From positions 248,001-312,000 of the forward strand of contig NZ_CP108677.1 in assembly GCF_035994945.1 (NCBI RefSeq): DNA of 64,000 bases, written 5' to 3'. Below are positions 8,219 through 19,450 of the stretch, piece by piece (within the stretch, counting starts at the first letter, position 1; every line of letters begins with the position of its first letter). The position numbers were made by a program, and so were the translations under genes. Below the pieces are notes generated by a model. It was not told where the DNA came from. It saw nothing but the letters and a program-made list of their open reading frames with translations, and searched no databases. Source of the DNA: Streptomyces sp. NBC_01216 (GTDB lineage: Bacteria; Actinomycetota; Actinomycetes; Streptomycetales; Streptomycetaceae).

Positions 8219-9860
8219 GGTCACCAACCAAGTACCGCCGCTGACCGGTTACGACGTGGCGGCCGATCCGGCACTGCTGGAGAGCCTGCACCGGGAGGGC
8301 GCGGGCTGGGCCGAGCCGGAGGTGCGCGCGCTGGGCGAACGGGCCGGCGGCGAGGAGGCCCAGGAGTGGGGCCGGCTGGCCGAGCGCCACTCCCCGGTGC
8401 TGCACACCCACGACCGCTACGGTCACCGGATCGACGAGGTCGAGTTCCATCCGCACTGGCACGATCTGATGGACGTGGCGGTGCGGCACGGGCTGCACGG
8501 CGCGCCGTGGCGCGACGCGCGGCCGGGCGCCCATGTGGCGCGCGCGGCGAAGGTGTTCGTGTGGGGACAGGCCGACGCCGGTCATCTGTGTCCGGTCTCG
8601 ATGACGTACGCGGCCGTGCCCGCGCTGCGTGCGCAGCGCGAGCTGGCCGAGCTCTACGAGCCCCTGCTCACCTCCCCCGTCTACGACTTCGGGCTGCGCG
8701 AGCCGAGCCGGAAGCGCGGGATCATCGCGGGAATGTCGATGACCGAGAAGCAGGGCGGCTCGGACGTCCGCGCCAACACGACCCGGGCGGTGCCGGCCGG
8801 CACCGACGGCCTCTTCGCGCTGACCGGCCACAAGTGGTTCACCTCGGCGCCGATGTCCGACGTGTTCCTCACTCTGGCGCAGGCGCCGGGTGGCCTGTCC
8901 TGTTTCCTGGTGCCGCGGGTGCTGCCGGACGGCTCGCGTAACGCGATCCGGTTGCAGCGTCTGAAGGACAAGCTCGGGAACCGTTCCAACGCCTCTTCGG
9001 AGATCGAGTACGAGGGGGCTCTCGGACATCTGGTCGGCGAGGAGGGCCGAGGTGTGGCCACCATCATCCGGATGGTGAACATGACCCGGCTCGACTGCGC
9101 GATCAGTTCGGCCTCCGGGATGCGCCTGGGACTGGTGCAGGCGGTCCACCACGCCTCGCACCGCGACGTGTTCGGGTCCCGGCTGGTCGACCAGCCGCTG
9201 ATGACGAACGTGCTCGCCGACCTGGCGGTGGAGGCGGAGGCCGCGACACTGGCCGCGCTGCGGCTGGCGGGCGCGGTGGACCGGGCGGCGGCGGGCGACG
9301 CGGAGGAGGAGTCGCTGCGCCGGGTCGGTCTCGCCGTCACCAAGTACTGGGTGTGCAAGCGGGCCCCCGCGCACGCGGCCGAAGCGCTGGAATGCCTCGG
9401 CGGCAACGGCTACGTGGAGGACTCCGGGCTGCCCCGGCTCTACCGCGAATCGCCGCTGCCGTCGATCTGGGAGGGCTCGGGGAACGTCGCCGCGCTCGAC
9501 GTGCTGCGGGCGATGGGGCGTCAGCCGCGGGCGGTCGACGCCTTCTTCGCCGAGGTCGACCGGGCGGCCGGGGCGGACCGCCGGCTGGACACGGCGACCG
9601 CCCGACTGCGCAAGGAGCTCACCGGTCTCGGTGACGACCCGGCCGCCGCGCAGTACCGCGCACGCCGACTCGTCGAGCACATGGCGCTGGTCCTCCAGGG
9701 TTCGCTCCTCGTCCGGCACGGCCATCCGGCGGTCGCGGACGCGTTCTGCGCCTCGCGTCTGGACGGCGACTGGGGAGTGGCCTTCGGCACGCTGCCGTCG
9801 GGCGTGGACACCGCGGCGATCATCGCGCGCGGGGCGCCTCGGCCCGCCGCCACGTCCTGA
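8202..9860 (+). CDS. AidB-like acyl-CoA dehydrogenase
   Basis: A 552-residue flavoprotein, close in length to E. coli AidB (541). Visible are the FAD-binding middle domain (GMSMTEKQGGSDVRANTTRA near residue 178 and GHKWFTSAPMSDVFL near 206), the interdomain GRGVATIIRMVNMTRLDCAISS, and the C-terminal ECLGGNGYVEDSGLPRLYRESPLPSIWEGSGNVAALDVLRA. These features match the AidB/isovaleryl-CoA dehydrogenase branch with its extra C-terminal domain. AidB binds DNA and is linked to alkylation stress; many actinobacterial members more likely oxidise acyl-CoA esters. It is translated from within the end of the TetR gene. Confidence 0.9.
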   Translation: MPTTHEVTNQVPPLTGYDVAADPALLESLHREGAGWAEPEVRALGERAGGEEAQEWGRLAERHSPVLHTHDRYGHRIDEVEFHPHWHDLMDVAVRHGLHGAPWRDARPGAHVARAAKVFVWGQADAGHLCPVSMTYAAVPALRAQRELAELYEPLLTSPVYDFGLREPSRKRGIIAGMSMTEKQGGSDVRANTTRAVPAGTDGLFALTGHKWFTSAPMSDVFLTLAQAPGGLSCFLVPRVLPDGSRNAIRLQRLKDKLGNRSNASSEIEYEGALGHLVGEEGRGVATIIRMVNMTRLDCAISSASGMRLGLVQAVHHASHRDVFGSRLVDQPLMTNVLADLAVEAEAATLAALRLAGAVDRAAAGDAEEESLRRVGLAVTKYWVCKRAPAHAAEALECLGGNGYVEDSGLPRLYRESPLPSIWEGSGNVAALDVLRAMGRQPRAVDAFFAEVDRAAGADRRLDTATARLRKELTGLGDDPAAAQYRARRLVEHMALVLQGSLLVRHGHPAVADAFCASRLDGDWGVAFGTLPSGVDTAAIIARGAPRPAATS

Positions 9861-10479: not shown

Positions 10480-12219
10480 TCAGGTCCCGCGGCGTCCGCC
10501 CTTCGCCGCCGCGAGCAGTTCCGGCACGGTGCCGAGTTTGACGCGCGGACGGCCGGCGTCGCGTCCCCGCGCCCGTTCGGTCCGGTCGATGGCGGCCAGC
10601 CCTCGCGCGTCGACCGCTCGGCGCACCCGGCGCCGCACCAGGCGCCGGAAGGCCCTGGCCGTGCCCGCGGGCGAGGGCGCCCGCAGTCTCCCGTCGACGG
10701 CGTCGGCGATCAGGGTGCCGATCGTCTCGGCCGCGCAGGTCCGGTTGGCGCCGATACCACCCGAAGGGCCTCTCTTGATCCATCCGACGACATACGTACC
10801 GGGCCGCCCCGTCACCCGTCCCGCGTCGTGCGGGACGGTGCCGGTCACCTCGTCGAACGGCAGGCCGGGGACGGGGAGCCCCCGGTAGCCGACGGCCCGC
10901 AGGAACAGGCCGGCGGGCAGGTCCAGCGGCTGCGTGCCTCCGGTCACCCGGACCCCGCGGACCCGGCCGCGGCCCTCGGTACGGGTGGTGCCGAAACCGC
11001 CTCCGCCCCCCGTGGGCGGACCGTCCCGGCGGGCTTCGGCACCGCCCTCGGCACCGTCGCCGAGTACCTCGGCCGGGGCGGAGTGGAAGCGGAGCACGAT
11101 CCGCCGGCGCGCCGTCCCGGGTGCGGCCGTCCAGTCCACCGCCTCTCGGGGCACTCCGCGCAGCAGCGACGCCTTGCCACCCGGGGCCGCCTCGTCGATC
11201 GCCGCGCCGATGCGCGGATCGTGGTCATCGACGACCAGGTCCACACCGGACAGATGGCGCAGCGCGAGCAGCTCGGAGGTGGTGTACGCGGCGTGCTCCG
11301 GGCCGCGCCGGCCGAGGATCACCACCTCGCGCACCCGGGCGGCGCGCAGCGCGGCGAGCGCGTGGTCGGCGGTGTCGGAGGTGCCGAGCGCGACCGGGTC
11401 GCCGACCAGGACGCGGGCCGCGTCGAGCGCGACGTTGCCGTTGCCGGCCACGACCACCCGTTCGCTCGTCAGATCGACCGCGTCCGCGGCCACCTCGGGG
11501 TGCGTGTTGTACCAGGCGACGAACGTGGTGGCCGGGACACTGCCCTGGAGGTCCTCGCCCGGGACACCGATCCGGCGGTCGGCGGAGGCGCCCACGGCGT
11601 AGACGACGGCGTCGTGATGGGCGGCGAGTTCCTCGGCGGTGATGTCACGGCCGACGTCGACGCCGAGGTGCATCCGTACCCGGGGGTGGTCGTGGAGGCG
11701 CGCGAAGGTGTCGCCGACCTTCTTGGTGGCCGGGTGGTCGGGTGCGACGCCGTAGCGGACGAGCCCGCCGGCCACCGGCAGCCGGTCGATGAGGGTCACC
11801 TGGGCGTTCGTGTGGAGCAGCAGGTCCTCCGCCGCGTACATGCCGGCCGGCCCCGTTCCGACGACGGCGACCCGGAGGGGCGCGAAGTCGGAGGGGAGGT
11901 CGCGGGCGAAGACGGGCCTGCCCCAGGGGTGGAGGTCGGGTCCCGCGGGGGCCGGTCCCGGTTCCCGGCCGTCGAAGTAGGCCGCGTTGAGGGCGATGTA
12001 GTCCCTCGCCGGCCCCCGCAGGCTGTCCGCGGGGAAGATGGCGTCGACGGGGCAGGCGTCGGCGCAGGCTCCGCAGTCGATGCACGACGCCGGGTCGACG
12101 TGCAGCATCTCGGTGCTGCCGAACTCCCGTTCCTCGGGCGTCGGGTGAATGCAGTTGACGGGACAGACGGCGACGCAGGCGGCGTCGTTGCAGCAGGTCT
12201 GGGTGATGGCGTAGGTCAT
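10480..12219 (-). CDS. ferredoxin-fused ferredoxin/flavodoxin-NADP+ reductase (FprB-type)
   Basis: A 579-residue cytoplasmic electron-transfer flavoprotein. The N-terminal 75 residues are a ferredoxin domain with two cysteine clusters (CCNDAACVAVCPVNC and CIDCGACADACPVDAI). The rest is a glutathione-reductase-fold reductase: FAD motif VAVVGTGPAGMYAAEDL near residue 115, NADP motif VVVAGNGNVALDAARVL near 260, and the FprA/adrenodoxin-reductase motifs VGRRGPEHAAYTTSEL and GWIKRGPSGGIGANR. It passes electrons from NADPH to iron-sulfur partners. It lies 37 bp downstream of the C-terminal fragment of the split diiron oxygenase on the same strand, so it is the probable redox partner in the original operon. 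Confidence 0.93.
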   Translation of the reverse strand: MTYAITQTCCNDAACVAVCPVNCIHPTPEEREFGSTEMLHVDPASCIDCGACADACPVDAIFPADSLRGPARDYIALNAAYFDGREPGPAPAGPDLHPWGRPVFARDLPSDFAPLRVAVVGTGPAGMYAAEDLLLHTNAQVTLIDRLPVAGGLVRYGVAPDHPATKKVGDTFARLHDHPRVRMHLGVDVGRDITAEELAAHHDAVVYAVGASADRRIGVPGEDLQGSVPATTFVAWYNTHPEVAADAVDLTSERVVVAGNGNVALDAARVLVGDPVALGTSDTADHALAALRAARVREVVILGRRGPEHAAYTTSELLALRHLSGVDLVVDDHDPRIGAAIDEAAPGGKASLLRGVPREAVDWTAAPGTARRRIVLRFHSAPAEVLGDGAEGGAEARRDGPPTGGGGGFGTTRTEGRGRVRGVRVTGGTQPLDLPAGLFLRAVGYRGLPVPGLPFDEVTGTVPHDAGRVTGRPGTYVVGWIKRGPSGGIGANRTCAAETIGTLIADAVDGRLRAPSPAGTARAFRRLVRRRVRRAVDARGLAAIDRTERARGRDAGRPRVKLGTVPELLAAAKGGRRGT

Positions 12220-12256: not shown

Positions 12257-12480
12257 TCAGATCAGGTGGGCGCGCTTGTGGAAGGCCAGCGCCGGCCGGG
12301 TGAGGAGCCGGGCCGAAGCCAAGAACTCCATGAGGCCGGAACAGCTCGACCGCATCAGGGAGCGGTGGTGCTCGTTGGCCCGTGCCTCGGCGCGTGCCCG
12401 CCGGGCGTCCAGACCCGCTTTCGCGTACACGTTCCGGTTCACCATGCTGGTGACGATGAAGTACGAGGCGATCGCGACCG
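12257..12480 (-). pseudogene. C-terminal fragment of AurF-like diiron oxygenase, cut off by the integrated element
   Basis: About 74 residues, starting PVAIASYFIVTSMVNRNVYAKAGL and ending FHKRAHLI, form the C-terminal helices of an AurF/p-aminobenzoate N-oxygenase-type protein. The frame is continuous with the N-terminal fragment at 18619-19365 if the element 12481-18618 is removed: N-terminal codons end ACC CTC and this piece continues CCG GTC GCG. Codons between 12481 and 12502 belong to element sequence. No start codon with a ribosome binding site serves this fragment, so it should be silent while the element is inserted. Confidence 0.85.
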
Positions 12481-12484
12481 GGAG
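12481..12484. other. left recombination core (GGAG) of the integrated element
   Basis: The host sequence reads ...GCGACCGGGAG and then changes to element sequence CGCCCGCAAAACG. The same four bases occur at the other junction. Serine recombinases exchange strands at a short identical core, so a four-base identity is plausible; the real crossover is two bases within it. The flanking element DNA would be one arm of attP. Confidence 0.7.
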
Positions 12485-12528
12485 CGCCCGCAAAACGCAC
12501 ATGCGTGCGGAAGCGGAGTTCGCGCAAG

Positions 12529-14118
12529 ATGGATCGCATGATTACGACGGAGTGCGACGGGTGTGGTAAGTGCCTGGTGGGAGTACGTCGCCTCTCTCGC
12601 AAGTCTGACTCCACCAACAGCCCGGAAAAGCAGCTCGGCCAGGTGCTCAGCGCCGTGGAAGCTGTCGGCGGGCACGTCATCGCGTGGGCGGATGACTGGG
12701 AGGTGTCGGGTGCGACCGACCCCGTGACGCGTCCGAAGCTCGGCCCGTGGCTCCGCGACGAGATGGGCCCGTACGACGGGATCGCCGGCTCGGCGGTCGA
12801 CCGGATCGGGCGCAACCAGCGGGACGTACTGAACACGGCGTACATGGTCCACAAATCGGGCCGCCTGTTGATCACCTACGGCCACGACGGGCCGTGGAAC
12901 CTGGAAGACCCCGTCGATGAGATGCGGCTTTCCATGGAGTCCTTCGGCGCGCAGATGGAGCTTCGCGCGATCCAGAAGCGCAACCGGGACGAGACGAAGC
13001 GGGCGCGCAGCGCCGGACAGCCGAAGCAGAAGAACCGGTACGGGTACCAGTTCGTGCGGCTCATTCCCACGGGCAACGTCGACCGGGTGGAACTGGACCC
13101 TGTGGCCTCCCTCATCCTCCGAGACGTCGCGGAACGCATCCTCGCCGACGAGACCGGAACGGTGACCGTCCACACCGAAGCCGCGCGTCTGAACCGCGCG
13201 GGCCTACTGTCGCCTGCCGACCACCGCGCTGTGATGTACGGACGCAAGCCCAAGGGCACCTTGTGGAACGCCAAGGCTCTCAAGCGGATGCTCACCAGCG
13301 AAGCGTCATTGGGCTACCTCATGCACGACGAGCGCCCCGTGATCGGCCCGGACGGGCACGCTGTGCGTATCGCCGATCCGCTGTGGGACCACGCCACGCG
13401 GGACGCGCTGATCAAGAAGGCCGCCCCGAAGTGGACCGGGACCCGCGCCCCGAAGGGGGTACGCCTGCTCTCGGGCATCGCGTACTGCGGCAAATGCGGG
13501 CAACGGCTCTACATGGTGGCCCGGACGGGACAGAACCCGTCCTACGGCTGCACGGCGCGCACGCGCGGCATTCCGTCGTCCGCCGGGTGCAAGCCCGCCC
13601 CCACCATGTCCGTCCCCATGCTGGACGAGCATGTGTCGACGTGGTTTCCGGCCGAGTACGGCGACCACCAGGTGATGCGCAAGGAGTTCGACCCTGGCAC
13701 CGGCTACGCCGCTCGTATCACGGAGATCGAAGCGGACCGTACGCGGCTCCGTGGAGATCGTCAGTCGGGTCTGTACGAGTCGGAGAGCGACACCGAGTGG
13801 TACCGCACCGAGTACGCCCGGATGACGCGGGAGATCGAAGCTCTCAAGCGGCTCCCTGAGCGGCCAGCGGGGATGCGGTGGATGCCCCTGGGCCGGACGA
13901 TTGCTGATGACTGGAAGACCGCTCCGGACGATGTCGCCCGTAGGGAGATCTTGAACGAGTACGACGTACGGGTGACGCTGCACCCGCGTGGCGCTAAGCA
14001 CCGAGTGCGTGTGACCGGACTCGACCCGGAGCAGCGGGCGGCAGAACAGAGCACGGCGCGAGACCACGCCGAGACGGCTGCGTTGGCTGAGTTGGAGGAT
14101 GCTCCGGAAGCCCTCTGA
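12529..14118 (+). CDS. large serine recombinase (phage-type integrase)
   Basis: About 529 residues. The N-terminal resolvase domain has the catalytic-serine region VRRLSRKSDSTNSPEKQ and the arginine motif AVDRIGRNQRD. A recombinase domain follows (YGYQFVRLIPTGNVDRVEL to TSEASLGYLMHDE). A zinc-ribbon domain with CGKCGQRLYM and two later cysteines (YGC, AGC), then a charged helical coiled-coil region, complete the large-serine-recombinase order. These enzymes join attP and attB one-way, with excision needing a directionality factor; none is recognised here. The ATG at 12529 has GGAG ten bases upstream; ATG 12538 and GTG 12505 are alternatives. A terminator follows at 14141. Confidence 0.93.
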   Translation: MDRMITTECDGCGKCLVGVRRLSRKSDSTNSPEKQLGQVLSAVEAVGGHVIAWADDWEVSGATDPVTRPKLGPWLRDEMGPYDGIAGSAVDRIGRNQRDVLNTAYMVHKSGRLLITYGHDGPWNLEDPVDEMRLSMESFGAQMELRAIQKRNRDETKRARSAGQPKQKNRYGYQFVRLIPTGNVDRVELDPVASLILRDVAERILADETGTVTVHTEAARLNRAGLLSPADHRAVMYGRKPKGTLWNAKALKRMLTSEASLGYLMHDERPVIGPDGHAVRIADPLWDHATRDALIKKAAPKWTGTRAPKGVRLLSGIAYCGKCGQRLYMVARTGQNPSYGCTARTRGIPSSAGCKPAPTMSVPMLDEHVSTWFPAEYGDHQVMRKEFDPGTGYAARITEIEADRTRLRGDRQSGLYESESDTEWYRTEYARMTREIEALKRLPERPAGMRWMPLGRTIADDWKTAPDDVARREILNEYDVRVTLHPRGAKHRVRVTGLDPEQRAAEQSTARDHAETAALAELEDAPEAL

Positions 14119-14140
14119 TCACTGACGCCTCCACCCGTCG

Positions 14141-14175
14141 AAGCCCCGGTAGTCCCTCACAGACCGCCGGGGCTT
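14141..14175 (+). terminator. intrinsic terminator of the recombinase gene
   Basis: AAGCCCCGG (14141-14149) pairs perfectly with CCGGGGCTT (14167-14175) across a 17-base loop, and is followed by TTGCTG. It begins 22 bp after the recombinase stop codon. Confidence 0.8.
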
Positions 14176-14232
14176 TGCTGTGCCAGCAGCGGGGCCGACC
14201 AGCGGGCCGAGCCATGACGGTATGACGGTTCA

Positions 14233-14726
14233 GACTGTTTTTTCGTATGCACAAGAAAAAATAAGGAGAAAACCGAACCGTCTGTCGAAACGCCATCCCG
14301 TCATGAGACCCGGGAATCCGTCCGTCCCTACCTCTCCTGCAGGGGGTGGGCGGGGCGGCACGGGCTCGATGCCGGTCAGCCCGCGCGGGAATCTGTTGGT
14401 CCCCACAGCAGAGTGAGGGCCGAACGGGCTCCCAGAGCCCGCCGTACGGAACGTTCCGGGAATTCGCTGCTCCCTACTACACAGTGAGGGCGGAACTCTC
14501 GTTCACCCACTCCGAGGGCGGATCTCGGTGCGGGACTGTGCGCTGTTCTCACGCCATCGGCTCACCCTCGGGCGGGGCAGCCCTACAGCGGGGCGAGGAG
14601 GTGTTGAGAGTGACGAGTTTCGACACTTTTTAGAACGCATAGAAAAAATACAGAGAAAGAGAAACCGGGGTCTCTGTCGTCACCACCGACACCGCTCGGC
14701 ACCCTCGGGACACCTTCGGTCCCTAC
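14233..14726. repeat. iteron-like repeats and two AT-rich islands in non-coding DNA of the element
   Basis: Four diverged 20-bp units share GGGAnnC...TCCCTAC: GGGAATCCGTCCGTCCCTAC (14312-14331), and related copies at 14387-14406, 14458-14477 and 14707-14726. Each is also a GGGA/TCCC dyad. Two AT-rich islands (about 14238-14275 and 14627-14667) share a T-run, a GCAnAGAAAAAATA core and GAGAAA, and each ends with ACCG about 37-40 bp before a 20-bp unit. A module therefore seems duplicated. No convincing gene fits 14176-14970. It could be a replication origin, an operator array or a phage regulatory region. Confidence 0.65.
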
Positions 14727-14866
14727 TACTGGGGCAAGAGAGAGCGGGACTACCGCGCACCCACCCCGAGGGGGAATTCGGCGGACCGAGTGCCTGTTCT
14801 CTCGCAGCTCTACCCGTGCAGCACGCATCCTCACGGGGTGGCCGCAGTGGTCGTGAGGTAGAGCGC

Positions 14867-14941
14867 GGGGACCGCACCGCCCATGAGTAACCGCCCCTTG
14901 ACCGGGGGCGCCGAAAGGGGTCGTAAGCGCGTGCGGTCCCC
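14867..14941. repeat. long-range 11-bp perfect inverted repeat with an inner hairpin
   Basis: GGGGACCGCAC at 14867-14877 is repeated inverted as GTGCGGTCCCC at 14931-14941. The 53-base loop contains a second hairpin (CGCCCC pairing with GGGGCG near 14891-14910). The structure lies 30 bp beyond the stop of the small minus-strand gene at 14971, so it could end that transcript, encode a structured RNA or be a DNA-processing site. Confidence 0.5.
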
Positions 14942-14970
14942 ACATTGTCCCGCGAACGATTCCAAGGGAG

Positions 14971-15171
14971 CTACTTCTTAGGCGACGGCTCTTCGTCGTC
15001 CTCGGGAGCATCCCGCATCGCCGCGAGGATGTCTGCCTGACCGGCGTCACCAGCCAGTGTCGCCCCGTAGAGGCCATCAAGGCTTTCGAGCTTCGTTGTC
15101 TCGCTGTTCTTCGCCTTTGCCTCGGAGGGGTCTCCTTCGGGCTTAGGTGAATTGCTGTTGGGGGCGGCCAT
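14971..15171 (-). CDS. small hydrophilic protein of the integrated element
   Basis: A 66-residue protein beginning MAAPNSNSPKPEGDPSEAK, rich in Lys, Glu, Asp and Pro, with one short hydrophobic stretch (LYGATLAGDAGQADILAAM). No family is recognised. A strong GGAGG lies seven bases before the ATG, which supports real translation. It could be a small regulator or a directionality factor by position within the element, but nothing in the sequence proves this. Confidence 0.65.
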   Translation of the reverse strand: MAAPNSNSPKPEGDPSEAKAKNSETTKLESLDGLYGATLAGDAGQADILAAMRDAPEDDEEPSPKK

Positions 15172-15287
15172 GGCAGTACCTCCGATGTTGCTGTCTGTGC
15201 CGTTAGTTGGATCAGCTACCCAGGCCGTCTCATCGCCTAACCCTTATGCAACCCGTGCGCCCCGCCTCGCTGGCGAGGACGTTACAA

Positions 15288-15361
15288 GCCCGCTGACCCA
15301 ACGGCAGAGGTGCGCCGTACCCAATCGGCAGAGTTCCCCGGTTCGAGTCCGAGGGCGGGCA
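15288..15361 (+). other. tRNA-like sequence, probably a degenerate tRNA
   Basis: A 74-base stretch has a seven-pair acceptor stem (GCCCGCT with GGCGGGC, one G-U pair), a D-arm with ACC/GGT and loop GG, and a T-arm with the normal loop TTCGAGT and one mismatch in its stem. The middle, however, forms GCCG/CGGC around an eight-base loop instead of a 5-bp stem with a seven-base loop, and looks like a second D-arm (CCCAATCGGCAGAG repeats CCCAACGGCAGAG). No anticodon can be assigned. It begins 104 bases before the HNH start codon and is probably a phage-tRNA relic. Confidence 0.45.
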
Positions 15362-15391
15362 CGCAGAAGCCGACGACATCGAGGGGCGCAC

Positions 15392-15736
15392 ATGCGCTGT
15401 ATCGACTGCACGGAGCCGGCGACCCATCTGGGCCGCTGCAAGAGCCATCACGGGGCGTACGAGCGACGACCGACCGTCCGCACACGGCGAGCACGGAGCC
15501 GGCGACGAGCGGCCCGGAACGATGCCCCTGCACGGCTCCGCCGGATCATCGAGCGGAAGGGGACCGCGTGGTGTGACTGGTGCCTGAACGACTTCCCTGG
15601 GGCAACGGTCGACGTGGACCATGTGCGGCCCCTCTCGATGGGAGGGACCGACACGGACGGCAACGTCCAAGTGCTGTGCCGAGGGTGTCACCGGCTCAAG
15701 ACGAGCACCGAGTTCGGTGTTGTCCGTGCCGCGTGA
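15392..15736 (+). CDS. HNH endonuclease
   Basis: A 114-residue nuclease. An N-terminal zinc-binding segment (MRCIDCTEPATHLGRCKSHH) is followed by a basic helix and a C-terminal HNH domain: CDWC, the catalytic VDVDHVRPLSMGGTDTDGNVQVLC and CRGCHRLKT, giving two CxxC pairs that hold the structural zinc. GAGGGG sits six bases before the ATG. Proteins of this size occur in actinophages and their relatives, where they cut DNA during packaging or homing. It lies just after the tRNA-like relic. Confidence 0.88.
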   Translation: MRCIDCTEPATHLGRCKSHHGAYERRPTVRTRRARSRRRAARNDAPARLRRIIERKGTAWCDWCLNDFPGATVDVDHVRPLSMGGTDTDGNVQVLCRGCHRLKTSTEFGVVRAA

Positions 15737-15789
15737 CGCACCACCGCCCGGCACAGAGCCAGCGCGCTGTACTGGGGCCGAGGCGTGCG

Positions 15790-16089
15790 TTACGGGCGTG
15801 GTTCGTAAAAGCCCGGGAAGTCCTTCTGGAAATCGGACCAATGGTGCTCGTAGTACTCCACGAATTCACTGCTGCTGATCGTGCCGTTTCCGTTCGCGTC
15901 CCAGTCCCTGTCCTTCGCGTGCAGCAATGCCGCGATCTTGATGGCGGTCTTCCCGTCGGTGGCGGCTCGGATATCCAAGAGCGTGAGAGCGTTACTCCTG
16001 TCTTTGTCCAGGGATACGAACGCCTTGCCGATTGCTACCTCGGATCCCTTAGGCGCTTCGTCAGATACTTCTTTTACTTCATCAGACAT
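15790..16089 (-). CDS. EF-hand (calcium-binding) protein of the integrated element
   Basis: A 99-residue acidic protein starting MSDEVKEVSDEAPKGSEVA. A canonical EF-hand loop DWDANGNGTISSSE occurs near residue 69, with acidic or oxygen ligands at positions 1, 3, 5 and 12, and a weaker loop DKDRSNALTLLD occurs near residue 30. The first lacks proper ligands at some positions, so perhaps one calcium is bound. A GAAGGG ribosome binding site is present. No signal peptide is seen. EF-hand proteins are found in Streptomyces, but one inside a phage-like element is unusual, and its role is unknown. Confidence 0.8.
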   Translation of the reverse strand: MSDEVKEVSDEAPKGSEVAIGKAFVSLDKDRSNALTLLDIRAATDGKTAIKIAALLHAKDRDWDANGNGTISSSEFVEYYEHHWSDFQKDFPGFYEPRP

Positions 16090-16232
16090 TTCTTTCCCTT
16101 CATTGGGTGGACCGGCAGGGCAGCACGAGTCACCCTCCGCATTGACAAGAGCACACAAAGTCACACTAGCTGCATGTGCCTGCTACCCGAGTCCCAGTCG
16201 CGTCACACCCCGCCCCTTGGAGGTGATCCCCC

Positions 16233-16629
16233 ATGCCCCGTAAGCCCCGCCCCCCCTTGCTCTGTACCCGGGTGCCCCGAGCTGACCGCCCGTGGTGGCC
16301 GCTGTGCCGAGCACCAGCGCGAGGCCGAGAGGTTGCGCGGTTCCTCTACTGAACGGGGCTACAGCACGCGTTGGCAGCGCGTCCGACGTGCGTTCCTGTA
16401 CCGGCACCCGTGGTGTCTGCTGTGCGGTCGCACGGCCACGGTCGCCGACCACTTCCCCGAGTCGCGCCGTTCGCTGGTCGCTCGGGGTGTCGCCGATCCG
16501 GACGCGTTCTCTCGTCTGCGTCCGCTGTGCTCGACGTGCCACAACCGCGAGACCGCGCGGAACCAACCGGGTGGGTTCGCTGCGGAGCGCAGGTCTCACC
16601 GTGAGGCGACCGAGCGGCCGTCGTTCTGA
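16233..16629 (+). pseudogene. phage-type HNH endonuclease with a one-base frameshift in a C run
   Basis: A perfect Shine-Dalgarno GGAGGTGATC lies six bases before the ATG at 16233, giving MPRKPRPP; the frame then runs to an early stop. The conserved protein continues one frame away: PCSVPGCPELTARGGRCAEHQ, then RGYSTRWQRVRRAFLYRHPWC, the HNH core WCLLCGRTATVADHFPES and LCSTCHNRETA, ending ATERPSF. Removing one C from the seven-C run at 16250-16256 joins both parts. Such HNH proteins sit beside the P27 terminase small subunit in actinophages. Sequencing error, true mutation or ribosomal slippage are all possible. Confidence 0.8.
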
Positions 16630-16712
16630 CCAGGGGGGTACTCCCCTCCCTCCGGCCGACAGATCGGCAGGGAGGCCGCAGTAGAAGTCGATACGGGTGC
16701 GGTAGACGGGCT

Positions 16713-17006
16713 GGAGACGGAGCAGTGGTAGCGCCCGGCATCCAGCTCGCGGGCCCAGATCTGGGCGGGAGGCAGTTCGGCGTACTCGCCCGAGTTCATC
16801 AGCTCCAGCACCGCCGCCCGCTCCGCGGGCGTGAGGGCCGAGGGCTGGACCTGCGGTTTCCTGGGCCTTCGCTCCGGTGGGGGCCGCAGCCGGCGGTAGT
16901 GGGTGGCCCTGGAGCGGCCGGTCAGCCGGCAGGCCGCCGTGATGCCCAGCTCGCCCTCGACGCCGGCGAACGCGTCGTCGGTGACCGGGTCGGCGGCAGC
17001 CCTCAG
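16713..17006 (-). pseudogene. truncated OrfB of an IS3-family transposase
   Basis: About 98 residues (from GLRAAADPVTDDAFAGVEGEL to ELPPAQIWARELDAGRYHCSVS) match the start of an IS3 OrfB, the part before the DDE catalytic core (HTH_21-like segment and AAVLELMNSGEYAELPPAQIWA). After CSVS the homology stops at about 16713, where the sequence changes to unrelated DNA, so the catalytic domain is lost. It follows orfA with the usual overlap. The deletion probably also removed whatever followed the HNH gene in the element. Confidence 0.8.
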
Positions 17007-17386
17007 TCCGCGCCCTCGGAGATCATTTCCAAGAGCGCGGAAGCTTTTCCCATAACCTCCAGCGCGGCCTTGTTCCGGGCCAGCTCCCTCTCCAGCCGTT
17101 CCACCTGGCGGCGCAGTTTCTCGTTCTCCGCCTCGGCAGCCGGCTTCTTCGGCCTCGCCGGACTGGTCCGCTGGTCGACCAGCTTCTCCAGGGCCCCGGC
17201 ATCCCGCGCGGCCCGCCACTCCGTGACGTGCGAGTGGTACAGGCGCTCGCGGCGCAGGACCGCACCCTTCTCACTCTTGGGCGCGGCGTCGTACTCGGCC
17301 ACGATCCGCAGCTTGTACTCGGGACTGAACGTGCGGCGCTTCGGCCGGGGAGCCGGGTCGGATCCGGCGGGCTTGGTGCTGTTCAT
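17003..17386 (-). CDS. IS3-family transposase OrfA
   Basis: A 127-residue protein with the OrfA pattern: FSPEYKLRIVAEYDAAPKSEKGAVLRRERLYHSHVTEWR (helix-turn-helix, residues about 20-58) followed by a leucine-zipper coiled coil AENEKLRRQVERLERELARNKAALEVM. OrfA binds the IS ends, but the OrfB partner is truncated so the IS cannot move by itself. The right end of the IS is likely near 17430 (TGTCTCACCC...), where it cuts into the methyltransferase gene. Confidence 0.85.
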   Translation of the reverse strand: MNSTKPAGSDPAPRPKRRTFSPEYKLRIVAEYDAAPKSEKGAVLRRERLYHSHVTEWRAARDAGALEKLVDQRTSPARPKKPAAEAENEKLRRQVERLERELARNKAALEVMGKASALLEMISEGAD

Positions 17387-17406
17387 GAGGGGGTGGCTCT
17401 CCCGTC

Positions 17407-18603
17407 GTGCCCTCTCAGGCTAACCCGACAAATCAGGATGTCTCACCCAAGGCTGACAGAGAGGGGTCCGCCTTCGTCCCCGAGCGCGTCTTTCTGGGTG
17501 AGGGCCCGGAGCCGTACAACCGGGCGGACGCTCCGGAAACGTGGCTTCGCGCGGTCTACGCCGACGATTCCGTCGTGACGCAGATCAACGACGGCAAGGA
17601 CCCCGGCGACGGCGAGCGGTGGGCGTCATCGTCCGCGAGCGCCCCGAGCATCGTGTTCCGGATGCTGCACATGCTCGACGTTCACGAGGGACACCGGGTC
17701 CTGGAGATCGGCACCGGAACCGGGTGGAACGCGGGTCTCCTGGCCCATGTCGCCGGCCCGGGGAACGTGACGACCATGGAAGTCGACCCCGTGTTGGCCG
17801 GGGAAGCCGGGGAGCGTCTGCGGAAGGAGGGGGTCACCGCTGCTGTGGTGACCAGGGACGGGGCCGAGGGGTACCCGGACAACGCGCCGTATGACCGGCT
17901 CGTGGCGACGTGCTCCGTAAGGTCCGTCCCGCGTCCGTGGGTCGACCAGGTGAAGCCCGGGGGCGTCATCCTCACCCCGTGGGAAAGTCCGTGGGTCTGC
18001 TACGGGCTGCTCCGCATGACCGTGGACGAGACCGGAAGCGCGTCGGGCCCTTTCTCGCCGCACTCCGCGTTCATGCTCATGAGGAACCAGCGCACAGACC
18101 TGCGGATCTTCCGCGATGTGGTGCGTGACGACCACCAGCCCGACGAGTCGACCACCACCCTGCCGCCATGGCGGGTGGCCGGTGACGACCTGGCCGCGCA
18201 GTTCGCCATGGGGCTACAGCTCCGTGACGTGTGGTGGACGTGGCACGACAACCCCGACGTGGAAGGAGTGGCGTCCAGGCTGTGGGTCGCGACGACCGAC
18301 GCCACTTCGTGGGCAGCCGTGGACTGGGACGGGAAGTCGGACGACCGATTCACGGTGTGGCAGCACGGCCCGCGTCGGCTTTGGAACGAAGTGGAAGCCG
18401 CTTACGCCTGGTGGGTGCTGCACGACCGTCCCGGACCCGAGCGGTTCGGCCTGACCGTGAGCGCCACGGGAGAGTCCGCGTGGCTGGACCGCCGATCAGC
18501 CCGTTCCCGCGACCGGCTGACCCGCAAGACCGCCCCGCCTGTGCGCCGTACCCCGTGGCGTACGGGCGGGGTTTCCCTGTGCCCGGACACACCCTGTGGC
18601 TAG
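17407..18603 (+). CDS. PIMT-like SAM-dependent methyltransferase, N-terminus probably truncated
   Basis: A 398-residue frame of the protein-L-isoaspartate methyltransferase-like group found in Streptomyces. The family core is intact: FVPERVFLGEGPEPYNRADAPETWLRAVYADDSVVTQINDG, motif I VLEIGTGTGWNAGLLAHVAG near residue 97, the acidic motif VTTMEVDP, and VKPGGVILTPWESPWVCYG. The usual 30-40 residues before AFVPERV are missing; the frame starts in IS3-derived DNA, so the IS seems to have replaced them. No ribosome binding site is clear, and it may be inactive. Its stop codon is 12 bp from the right recombination core. Confidence 0.75.
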   Translation: MPSQANPTNQDVSPKADREGSAFVPERVFLGEGPEPYNRADAPETWLRAVYADDSVVTQINDGKDPGDGERWASSSASAPSIVFRMLHMLDVHEGHRVLEIGTGTGWNAGLLAHVAGPGNVTTMEVDPVLAGEAGERLRKEGVTAAVVTRDGAEGYPDNAPYDRLVATCSVRSVPRPWVDQVKPGGVILTPWESPWVCYGLLRMTVDETGSASGPFSPHSAFMLMRNQRTDLRIFRDVVRDDHQPDESTTTLPPWRVAGDDLAAQFAMGLQLRDVWWTWHDNPDVEGVASRLWVATTDATSWAAVDWDGKSDDRFTVWQHGPRRLWNEVEAAYAWWVLHDRPGPERFGLTVSATGESAWLDRRSARSRDRLTRKTAPPVRRTPWRTGGVSLCPDTPCG

Positions 18604-18614
18604 AGTGTGTGTTT

Positions 18615-18618
18615 GGAG
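18615..18618. other. right recombination core (GGAG) of the integrated element
   Basis: Element DNA ends ...TAGAGTGTGTGTTTGGAG and host DNA continues GGTGTTCCTGACGACC, which codes (minus strand) for ALVVRNTL of the oxygenase. Only GGAG is shared with the left junction. The GTGTGTGTTT next to it and CGCCCGCAAAACG at the left end would be the two attP arms. Confidence 0.7.
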
Positions 18619-19365
18619 GGTGTTCCTGACGACCAGCGCGTTGATGTGCCGACGCACCGTTCCGGCGTTCCGCAGGTGGTTGCGGGTCTCGTCGCGGGCG
18701 AACTTCATGTGGCGCGATTCCTCGACGACATGGATGTTGTTGATGGTGCGTACGAAGGGTGCCACCCGTTCGTCCCGCATCCAGTCGCGCTGCATGACGT
18801 CGAGGACTTCCTCGGCGACCAGGATCGACGCGTACGCGGACTCTCCGAAGGCGAGCGTCTTGAAGACACGACCGAGTTCGACCACGGCCCGGCGAGGCCG
18901 GTAGGCCGGAGCGCCCAGCTTGGCGGCGCCGCGCGCGAACATCACGGAGTGGCGGCACTCGTCGGCGATCTCGGTGAGCGCCCACTGGAACCGGGGCTGG
19001 GTCGGGTCCTTGCCGTAGATGTCCCGCAGCACCATCTGCTGGAGGATCATCTCGAACCAGATGCCGGTGCTGGCCACCGAGGCGGCTTCCTGCCGGGTGA
19101 GTTCCCTGCGCTGGGGCTCGGTCAGTTCGCTCCAGTAGGCCGTGCCGTAAAGGGTGCTCCACTCGGGGCTGGCGCCGTGGAAGTCCTTGTCGAGTGGGGT
19201 GTCCCAGTCCACTTCGGTGACCGGATCGTAGGACAGTCTGGCTGCCGAGTCGAGCAGTCGGCGGGCGACCTCGTGTTCGGCGGGCCTGTCGTGTTCCCGG
19301 CCCGGGGAGGAGTCCTGGCTCTGTTCCTGATCCCGGCTCTCCGGCCGAACGGTGCCGCCTGTCAT
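18619..19365 (-). pseudogene. N-terminal fragment of AurF-like diiron oxygenase, interrupted by the element
   Basis: About 249 residues from MTGGTVRPES to VVRNTL; in the present state the frame continues into the element and stops at 18496. The diiron ligands are in this part: EIADECRHSVMF (E..ExxH type), AEEVLD, and HVVEESRHMKFARDE (EExRH). The family (p-aminobenzoate N-oxygenase AurF-like, PF11583) oxidises amines or other small substrates with two electrons from a reductase. AAGGAG lies seven bases before the ATG. Joined to 12257-12480 it makes a normal-length protein of about 324 residues. Confidence 0.88.
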
Positions 19366-19401
19366 GCTGCGGCTCCTTGAATCGAGGGATCGACCCGTCG
19401 G

Positions 19402-19450
19402 CTTGTTAGGCGTCACGTCTAGCAAGCTGTTAGACGGAACGTATAACAAG
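19402..19450. promoter_or_regulatory. two adjoining 25-bp palindromes upstream of the split oxygenase gene
   Basis: Dyads at 19402-19426 (10 of 12 half-site positions match; half-site CTTGTTAGGCGT) and 19426-19450 (8 of 12; half-site CTTGTTATACGT read inward) share one base, and their centres are 24 bp apart. They lie 37-85 bp upstream of the start codon at 19365. Size and spacing fit a TetR-type repressor binding as two dimers. No regulator gene is adjacent, so the binder is unidentified. Confidence 0.7.

Follow-up and report, generated by a model that had tools for sequence, protein, structure and literature searches.

The 64,000-nucleotide stretch analyzed here (positions 248,001 to 312,000 of contig NZ_CP108677.1 of Streptomyces sp. 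strain NBC_01216; hereafter the window, in whose coordinates all features are given) contains a gene for a predicted AurF-type diiron oxygenase that is cut in two by an element of 6,152 bp encoding its own large serine integrase. We interpret this arrangement, with a probability of about 80%, as the integration of a decayed phage-derived element at a secondary attachment site (a pseudo-attB) that broke the oxygenase gene, a gene that would not be the element's home. The nearest relatives of the integrase lie between the two halves of a gene for an S-adenosylmethionine (SAM)-dependent methyltransferase, and in the window genome that gene is intact and empty.

A serine integrase element splits an oxygenase gene

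Two minus-strand open reading frames (ORFs), 18496 to 19365 and 12257 to 12502, lie about 6.1 kb apart and encode an N-terminal and a C-terminal part, respectively, of a single AurF-family protein. They match positions 2 to 230 and 224 to 280, respectively, of the 282-position Pfam AurF profile, both above cut-off (37 bits for the C-terminal part, cut-off 29.6), and relatives carry the gene uninterrupted. The 5' part of the gene, codons 1 to 245, occupies 18631 to 19365 (start codon picked by us within the ORF 18496 to 19449), and the 3' part, with 73 codons and the stop and including the AC core described below, occupies 12257 to 12478, both on the minus strand. The translation contains EIADECRH and EESRHMKF, which we take to be the ligand motifs of a diiron oxygenase, and the rejoined protein of 318 residues is matched end to end by its orthologues, so that the family assignment extends over its whole length.

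The crossover falls at an AC dinucleotide (12477 to 12478 on the left and 18629 to 18630 on the right, with GAC as the full shared overlap), which places the element at 12479 to 18630. Joining the flanks across AC gives an oxygenase frame of 318 codons whose junction reads INALVVAIASY, and the 16 codons around this junction agree residue for residue with all 31 orthologous loci compared, including the 10 orthologues that were aligned for the alternative core GGAG. An earlier reading of the sequence alone, made without database searches, had recognized the split gene, the integrase gene at the start of the element, and both motifs, all of which we found as it described them, but it placed the borders at 12481 and 18618 with GGAG as the core and a rejoined frame of about 324 residues. 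A GGAG joining does give 324 residues, but 18 nucleotides, or six residues, are then present that are absent from 10 of 10 aligned intact orthologues. The uninterrupted homologues that were proposed as a check on the predicted flanks therefore disagree with the GGAG joining and agree with the AC joining, a mismatch that arises only because the core had been placed about 4 bp off at the left border and about 12 to 14 bp off at the right one. The proposed search for uninterrupted genes found a close orthologue intact across the site in 102 of 392 Streptomyces genomes. The sequence-only reading thus identified the kind of event correctly but not the precise borders. A scan of the two border stretches for at least four shared bases gave six rows (four distinct matches), of which GGAG is only one, so that it is little informative. 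Two further candidates were rejected: a CGACC overlap would delete a codon present in the orthologues, and plain transposition is ruled out by the serine integrase, the att-like ends, and the lack of a long duplication.

The left attachment site (attL, 12455 to 12500, plus strand) consists of an oxygenase half-site, the AC core, and the element half-site CGGGAGCGCCCGCAAAACGCAC, which is the same in the elements of strains ADI96-02 and R302, while the right site (attR, 18607 to 18652, plus strand) consists of the element half-site GTGTGTTTGGAGGGTGTTCCTG, near-identical in those two elements, followed by the AC core and an oxygenase half-site. The rejoined attP is 46 bp long (22 + 2 + 22), and its 22-bp imperfect inverted arms match at 16 of 22 positions, a value reached by only 8 of 62,000 window positions and thus above chance; the arms of the related element in genome G292 match at 18 of 22. 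An attP with imperfect inverted arms, a dinucleotide common to attB, and an adjacent integrase gene together identify a large serine integrase element. The element of Streptomyces sp. strain R302 (left border CTC[AC]CGGGAG, right border CCTG[AC]CGCC) lies inside the methyltransferase gene and has the AC core on both sides, and this agreement from another gene supports the AC register at the oxygenase.

These comparisons also bear on whether the split could be an assembly artefact or a chance pairing of unrelated fragments. The locus is represented by a single assembly (7.7 Mb in 4 contigs), but it lies within a 7.1-Mb contig, its borders match elements of other strains, and both halves fit one orthologue family, so that we consider such an origin extremely improbable.

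The nearest relatives of the integrase occupy a methyltransferase gene

The integrase gene (12529 to 14118, plus strand, with its start at 12529 or 12538) encodes Resolvase and Zn_ribbon_recom domains, both above cut-off, matches the PHROG 95 integrase family at 2e-60, and is apparently intact. A 525-residue part of its product (12541 to 14118) was used as the query against the 392 genomes, of which 34 matched at an E value of ≤1e-40; three candidates were scored per genome, so that weaker copies may be missed. The four nearest integrases, from ADI96-02 (96% identity), R302 (95%), S. celluloflavus (88%), and genome G292 (81%), are all flanked by the two halves of a single SAM-methyltransferase gene, as is the integrase of genome G356 (68%). 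At loci L100 (72%) and L112 (70%), the C-terminal half of this gene stands at the border, and no N-terminal half was seen in the surrounding DNA examined. At six further places with integrases of 67 to 72% identity (L025, L026, which shares its contig with L102, L048, L101, L103, and L106), neither methyltransferase half was found, which suggests that the wider integrase clade also uses other genes. In a maximum-likelihood tree of 27 integrases, the window copy nests among the methyltransferase-site integrases (98/92, 100/96, and 97/95); this tree left out L116, which was too short, as well as L102, L117, L118, L120, and most of L030 to L051. Many more distant integrases (about 52 to 57% identity; L032 and L034 to L047) attach differently, being located immediately past the 3' end of another conserved gene, one that ends in RLSFLG.

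The methyltransferase gene of the window genome is intact (84% identity over residues 12 to 261, no stops), and its standard site sequence (L092) is empty. The ADI96-02 genome (G123) shows the reverse arrangement, with an intact oxygenase gene (L081) and a split methyltransferase gene. Its element has the same left border as that of R302; its right att site (L053, about 8430 to 8450) is one A short of R302 at the core, and exact reversal there may therefore not restore the methyltransferase frame. In G292 and S. celluloflavus (L099), the overlaps include GT, and the elements are inserted into this methyltransferase gene in the opposite direction, as expected if the core dinucleotide determines the orientation of integration, as reported in PMC3783163 and in references 43 and 44 therein.

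A single use of the oxygenase site among 392 genomes

An AurF-like match at an E value of ≤1e-30 is present in 377 of the 392 genomes, and in 102 a close orthologue (61 to 85% identity) reads across the break point with no stop codon. Only the window genome is split at this site, and a search of the 392 genomes for repeated use of the site found no second insertion. Oxygenase fragments in genomes G398 (residues 55 to 204) and G247 (residues 151 to 318) were considered as further insertions and rejected, since their ends are not at the site, residue 245.

The oxygenase site differs from the usual attB, and the integrase's close kin lie in the methyltransferase gene, as would be expected of a pseudo-attB. 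Of the 6,628 AC-centered positions of the window (element removed), the oxygenase site ranked 8th by its score in a profile built from 14 methyltransferase sites, and its identity of 26/45 to the G292 site was equaled or bettered at 26 of 127,910 window positions. The likeness between the two sites thus appears weak but not random, as in published pseudo-attB sites; those of the PhiBT1 integrase are reported to have 27 to 48% identity, with full conservation limited to the core dinucleotide (PMC5937489).

Several observations weigh against a secondary-site integration. The oxygenase site scores −16.5 in the profile, compared with 54 to 69 for real methyltransferase sites, and seven window positions score higher; its identity is limited to the 26/45 noted above and to 21/45 with the ADI96-02 site. 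A vacant preferred site in the same genome is also unexpected. At 12 residues the integrase is unlike both nearest relatives, ADI96-02 and R302, and 10 of these also differ from S. celluloflavus, so that its preference, putatively for the usual methyltransferase site, may have changed. Finally, the oxygenase gene is without sign of decay, which a functional, excisable state would explain too.

The altered integrase residues and the free methyltransferase site could together mean that the oxygenase site has become the normal attB of an integrase with changed specificity. We regard this as unlikely, since the integrase remains 95 to 96% identical to enzymes whose elements, with nearly identical attP arms, reside in the methyltransferase gene, and since no second oxygenase insertion exists among the 392 genomes.

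Is the element a regulated switch?

The sequence-only reading had offered two explanations, a DNA switch for the oxygenase or a recent gene-breaking insertion, and the second fits best. A switch would require that the element be excised in development and the oxygenase restored, as SPbeta is for spsM. The open integrase frame, the two well-formed att sites, the exact restoration of the oxygenase frame upon excision, and the undecayed gene are all compatible with this, but such features are common to any site-specific insertion. Recurrence of the interruption in related genomes, which we took as a mark of a switch although some known switches lack it, was not observed (1 of 392 genomes); the kin of the element reside in another, unrelated gene; the element looks decayed; and no excision factor, for which no family-directed search was made, was identified. 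In principle the element could act as a regulated switch, but positive support for this is lacking, and we consider it very unlikely.

The state of the oxygenase gene fits more than one history. Its mean nonsynonymous difference to 30 orthologues is 0.094, compared with a mean of 0.092 (range, 0.069 to 0.153) among the orthologues themselves, and both halves are alike in this respect. It deviates at 3 columns conserved in at least 95% of sequences, and other orthologues deviate at 0 to 12. The insertion may be recent, or the gene may have been kept in use through excision; the data fit both and cannot separate them.

Contents of the element and its neighborhood

Behind the integrase gene, the element contains a 66-residue ORF (14971 to 15171, minus strand) with no match in Pfam, NCBIfam, or PHROGs; an HNH endonuclease gene (15392 to 15736, plus strand; Pfam HNH, 39 bits; PHROG 144); and a gene for an EF-hand-like protein (15790 to 16164, minus strand) that matches EF-hand_6 at 26.8 bits (cut-off, 25), with other EF-hand models below cut-off. 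The body of a second HNH endonuclease gene (16258 to 16629, plus strand) has 70% identity to an HNH protein of G292 over residues 9 to 130, and the ORF that includes it (15580 to 16629) matches PHROG 589 at 2.5e-22; its ATG, at 16233, is in a different frame from this body, and to judge from the reading frames the gene is probably broken. A transposase-like remnant resembling OrfA of IS3/IS66 (16596 to 17386, minus strand) matches HTH_Tnp_1 and insertion sequence models, all below curated cut-offs. It stands where the elements of ADI96-02 and R302 have regulators (DUF6879 and XRE) between the HNH and methyltransferase genes; R302 also has a small terminase gene. The last gene (17407 to 18603, plus strand) encodes a PCMT-type methyltransferase (Pfam PCMT, 90.5 bits; TIGR04188, 295 bits, below its cut-off of 380), the 5' end of which is unlike that of relatives, with similarity to ADI96-02 only from 17465. 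From these features the element as a whole looks decayed. The element pairs the 66-residue ORF with a methyltransferase whose best NCBIfam model, although below cut-off, belongs to ATP-grasp peptide maturase systems; no gene for an ATP-grasp protein was noticed alongside them.

Outside the element, a gene for a fused ferredoxin and NAD(P)-linked reductase (10480 to 12219, minus strand; Fer4 and Pyr_redox_2) begins 37 bp downstream of the oxygenase gene, and all 31 orthologous loci compared have such a gene next to the oxygenase. The reductase is a likely dedicated electron donor of the AurF-type oxygenase. Given this proximity and the constant association of the two genes, the insertion probably stops transcription of the reductase gene too.

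Possible satellite nature of the relatives

The relative in G292 (9.45 kb; L054, 5169 to 11892) carries genes for scaffold-like, major capsid, HNH, and small terminase proteins together with NUDIX and adenosylhomocysteinase-like cargo, and no large terminase or portal was found among those of its 55 ORFs, both strands counted, that were scanned (Pfam for nine, PHROGs for six). HNH and small terminase genes also occur in the elements of R302, G012, and S. celluloflavus, so that packaging-related genes comprise HNH alone in the window element, a small terminase in four relatives, and a capsid in one. From this gene content the elements are probably phage derived and may be phage satellites. Among phage records, 702 have an integrase match, none with at least 60% identity, and the highest value among the best 15 of these was 31%; in viral contigs, three loci have 48 to 52% identity to the integrase. 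No publication title, among titles and abstract beginnings, was found to name this element. Tentatively, and with considerable doubt, these elements could represent an undescribed Streptomyces satellite family with a serine integrase, an HNH nuclease, a small terminase, sometimes scaffold and capsid genes, no large terminase or portal seen, and methyltransferase or NUDIX cargo, whose home would be one methyltransferase codon with an AC or GT core setting the orientation; in that case a decayed copy would have moved into a diiron oxygenase operon, where some cells could still have their oxygenase turned on by the integrase.

Implications and comparison with known systems

Under secondary-site integration, a phage-derived island, possibly a satellite, would have used its own large serine integrase to enter a pseudo-attB inside the AurF-type oxygenase gene. 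The enzyme would have recombined attP, with its 22-bp imperfect inverted arms around AC, with an AC-centered site in the gene to produce attL and attR, cutting in such a way that simple reversal would restore the gene, while one codon position in the methyltransferase gene, the usual home of its closest kin, would have stayed empty. The outcome would be a broken oxygenase gene with a probably untranscribed reductase gene behind it and no programmed excision. This arrangement makes available an integrase whose attP is defined and for which two natural attB sites exist, and it cautions that precise gene-splitting elements are not all switches.

The element resembles SPbeta in spsM (PMC4191935) and skin in sigK in that a serine recombinase element splits a gene restorably. 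In sporulating Bacillus subtilis, SprA and its accessory protein SprB are reported to excise SPbeta from spsM (PMC4191935). Unlike in those systems, there is no sign here of excision, of a directionality factor (for which no family search was made), or of a conserved host-gene site. The relatives likewise share HNH and small terminase genes, and in one case scaffold-like and major capsid genes, with phage satellites such as the capsid-forming phage-inducible chromosomal islands and the Streptomyces satellites MulchRoom and MiniFlayer, a feature that makes them possible satellites themselves; however, those satellites are described as encoding a large terminase and portal (PMC10690885), neither of which was seen in the nine G292 ORFs scanned, and the window copy retains HNH genes only.

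The closest parallel is to pseudo-attB insertions of PhiBT1 and PhiC31, which share the core dinucleotide, little other identity to attB, and precise, gene-inactivating insertion (PMC5937489). Those cases involve the integration of laboratory vectors, in Nocardia without the canonical attB (PMC5937489), whereas the insertion described here lies in a natural genome in which the usual site is present and free. Together with ADI96-02, whose integrase is 96% identical and whose methyltransferase gene is split and oxygenase gene intact, the window strain thus forms a natural pair and would provide a natural case of secondary-site integration by a serine integrase.

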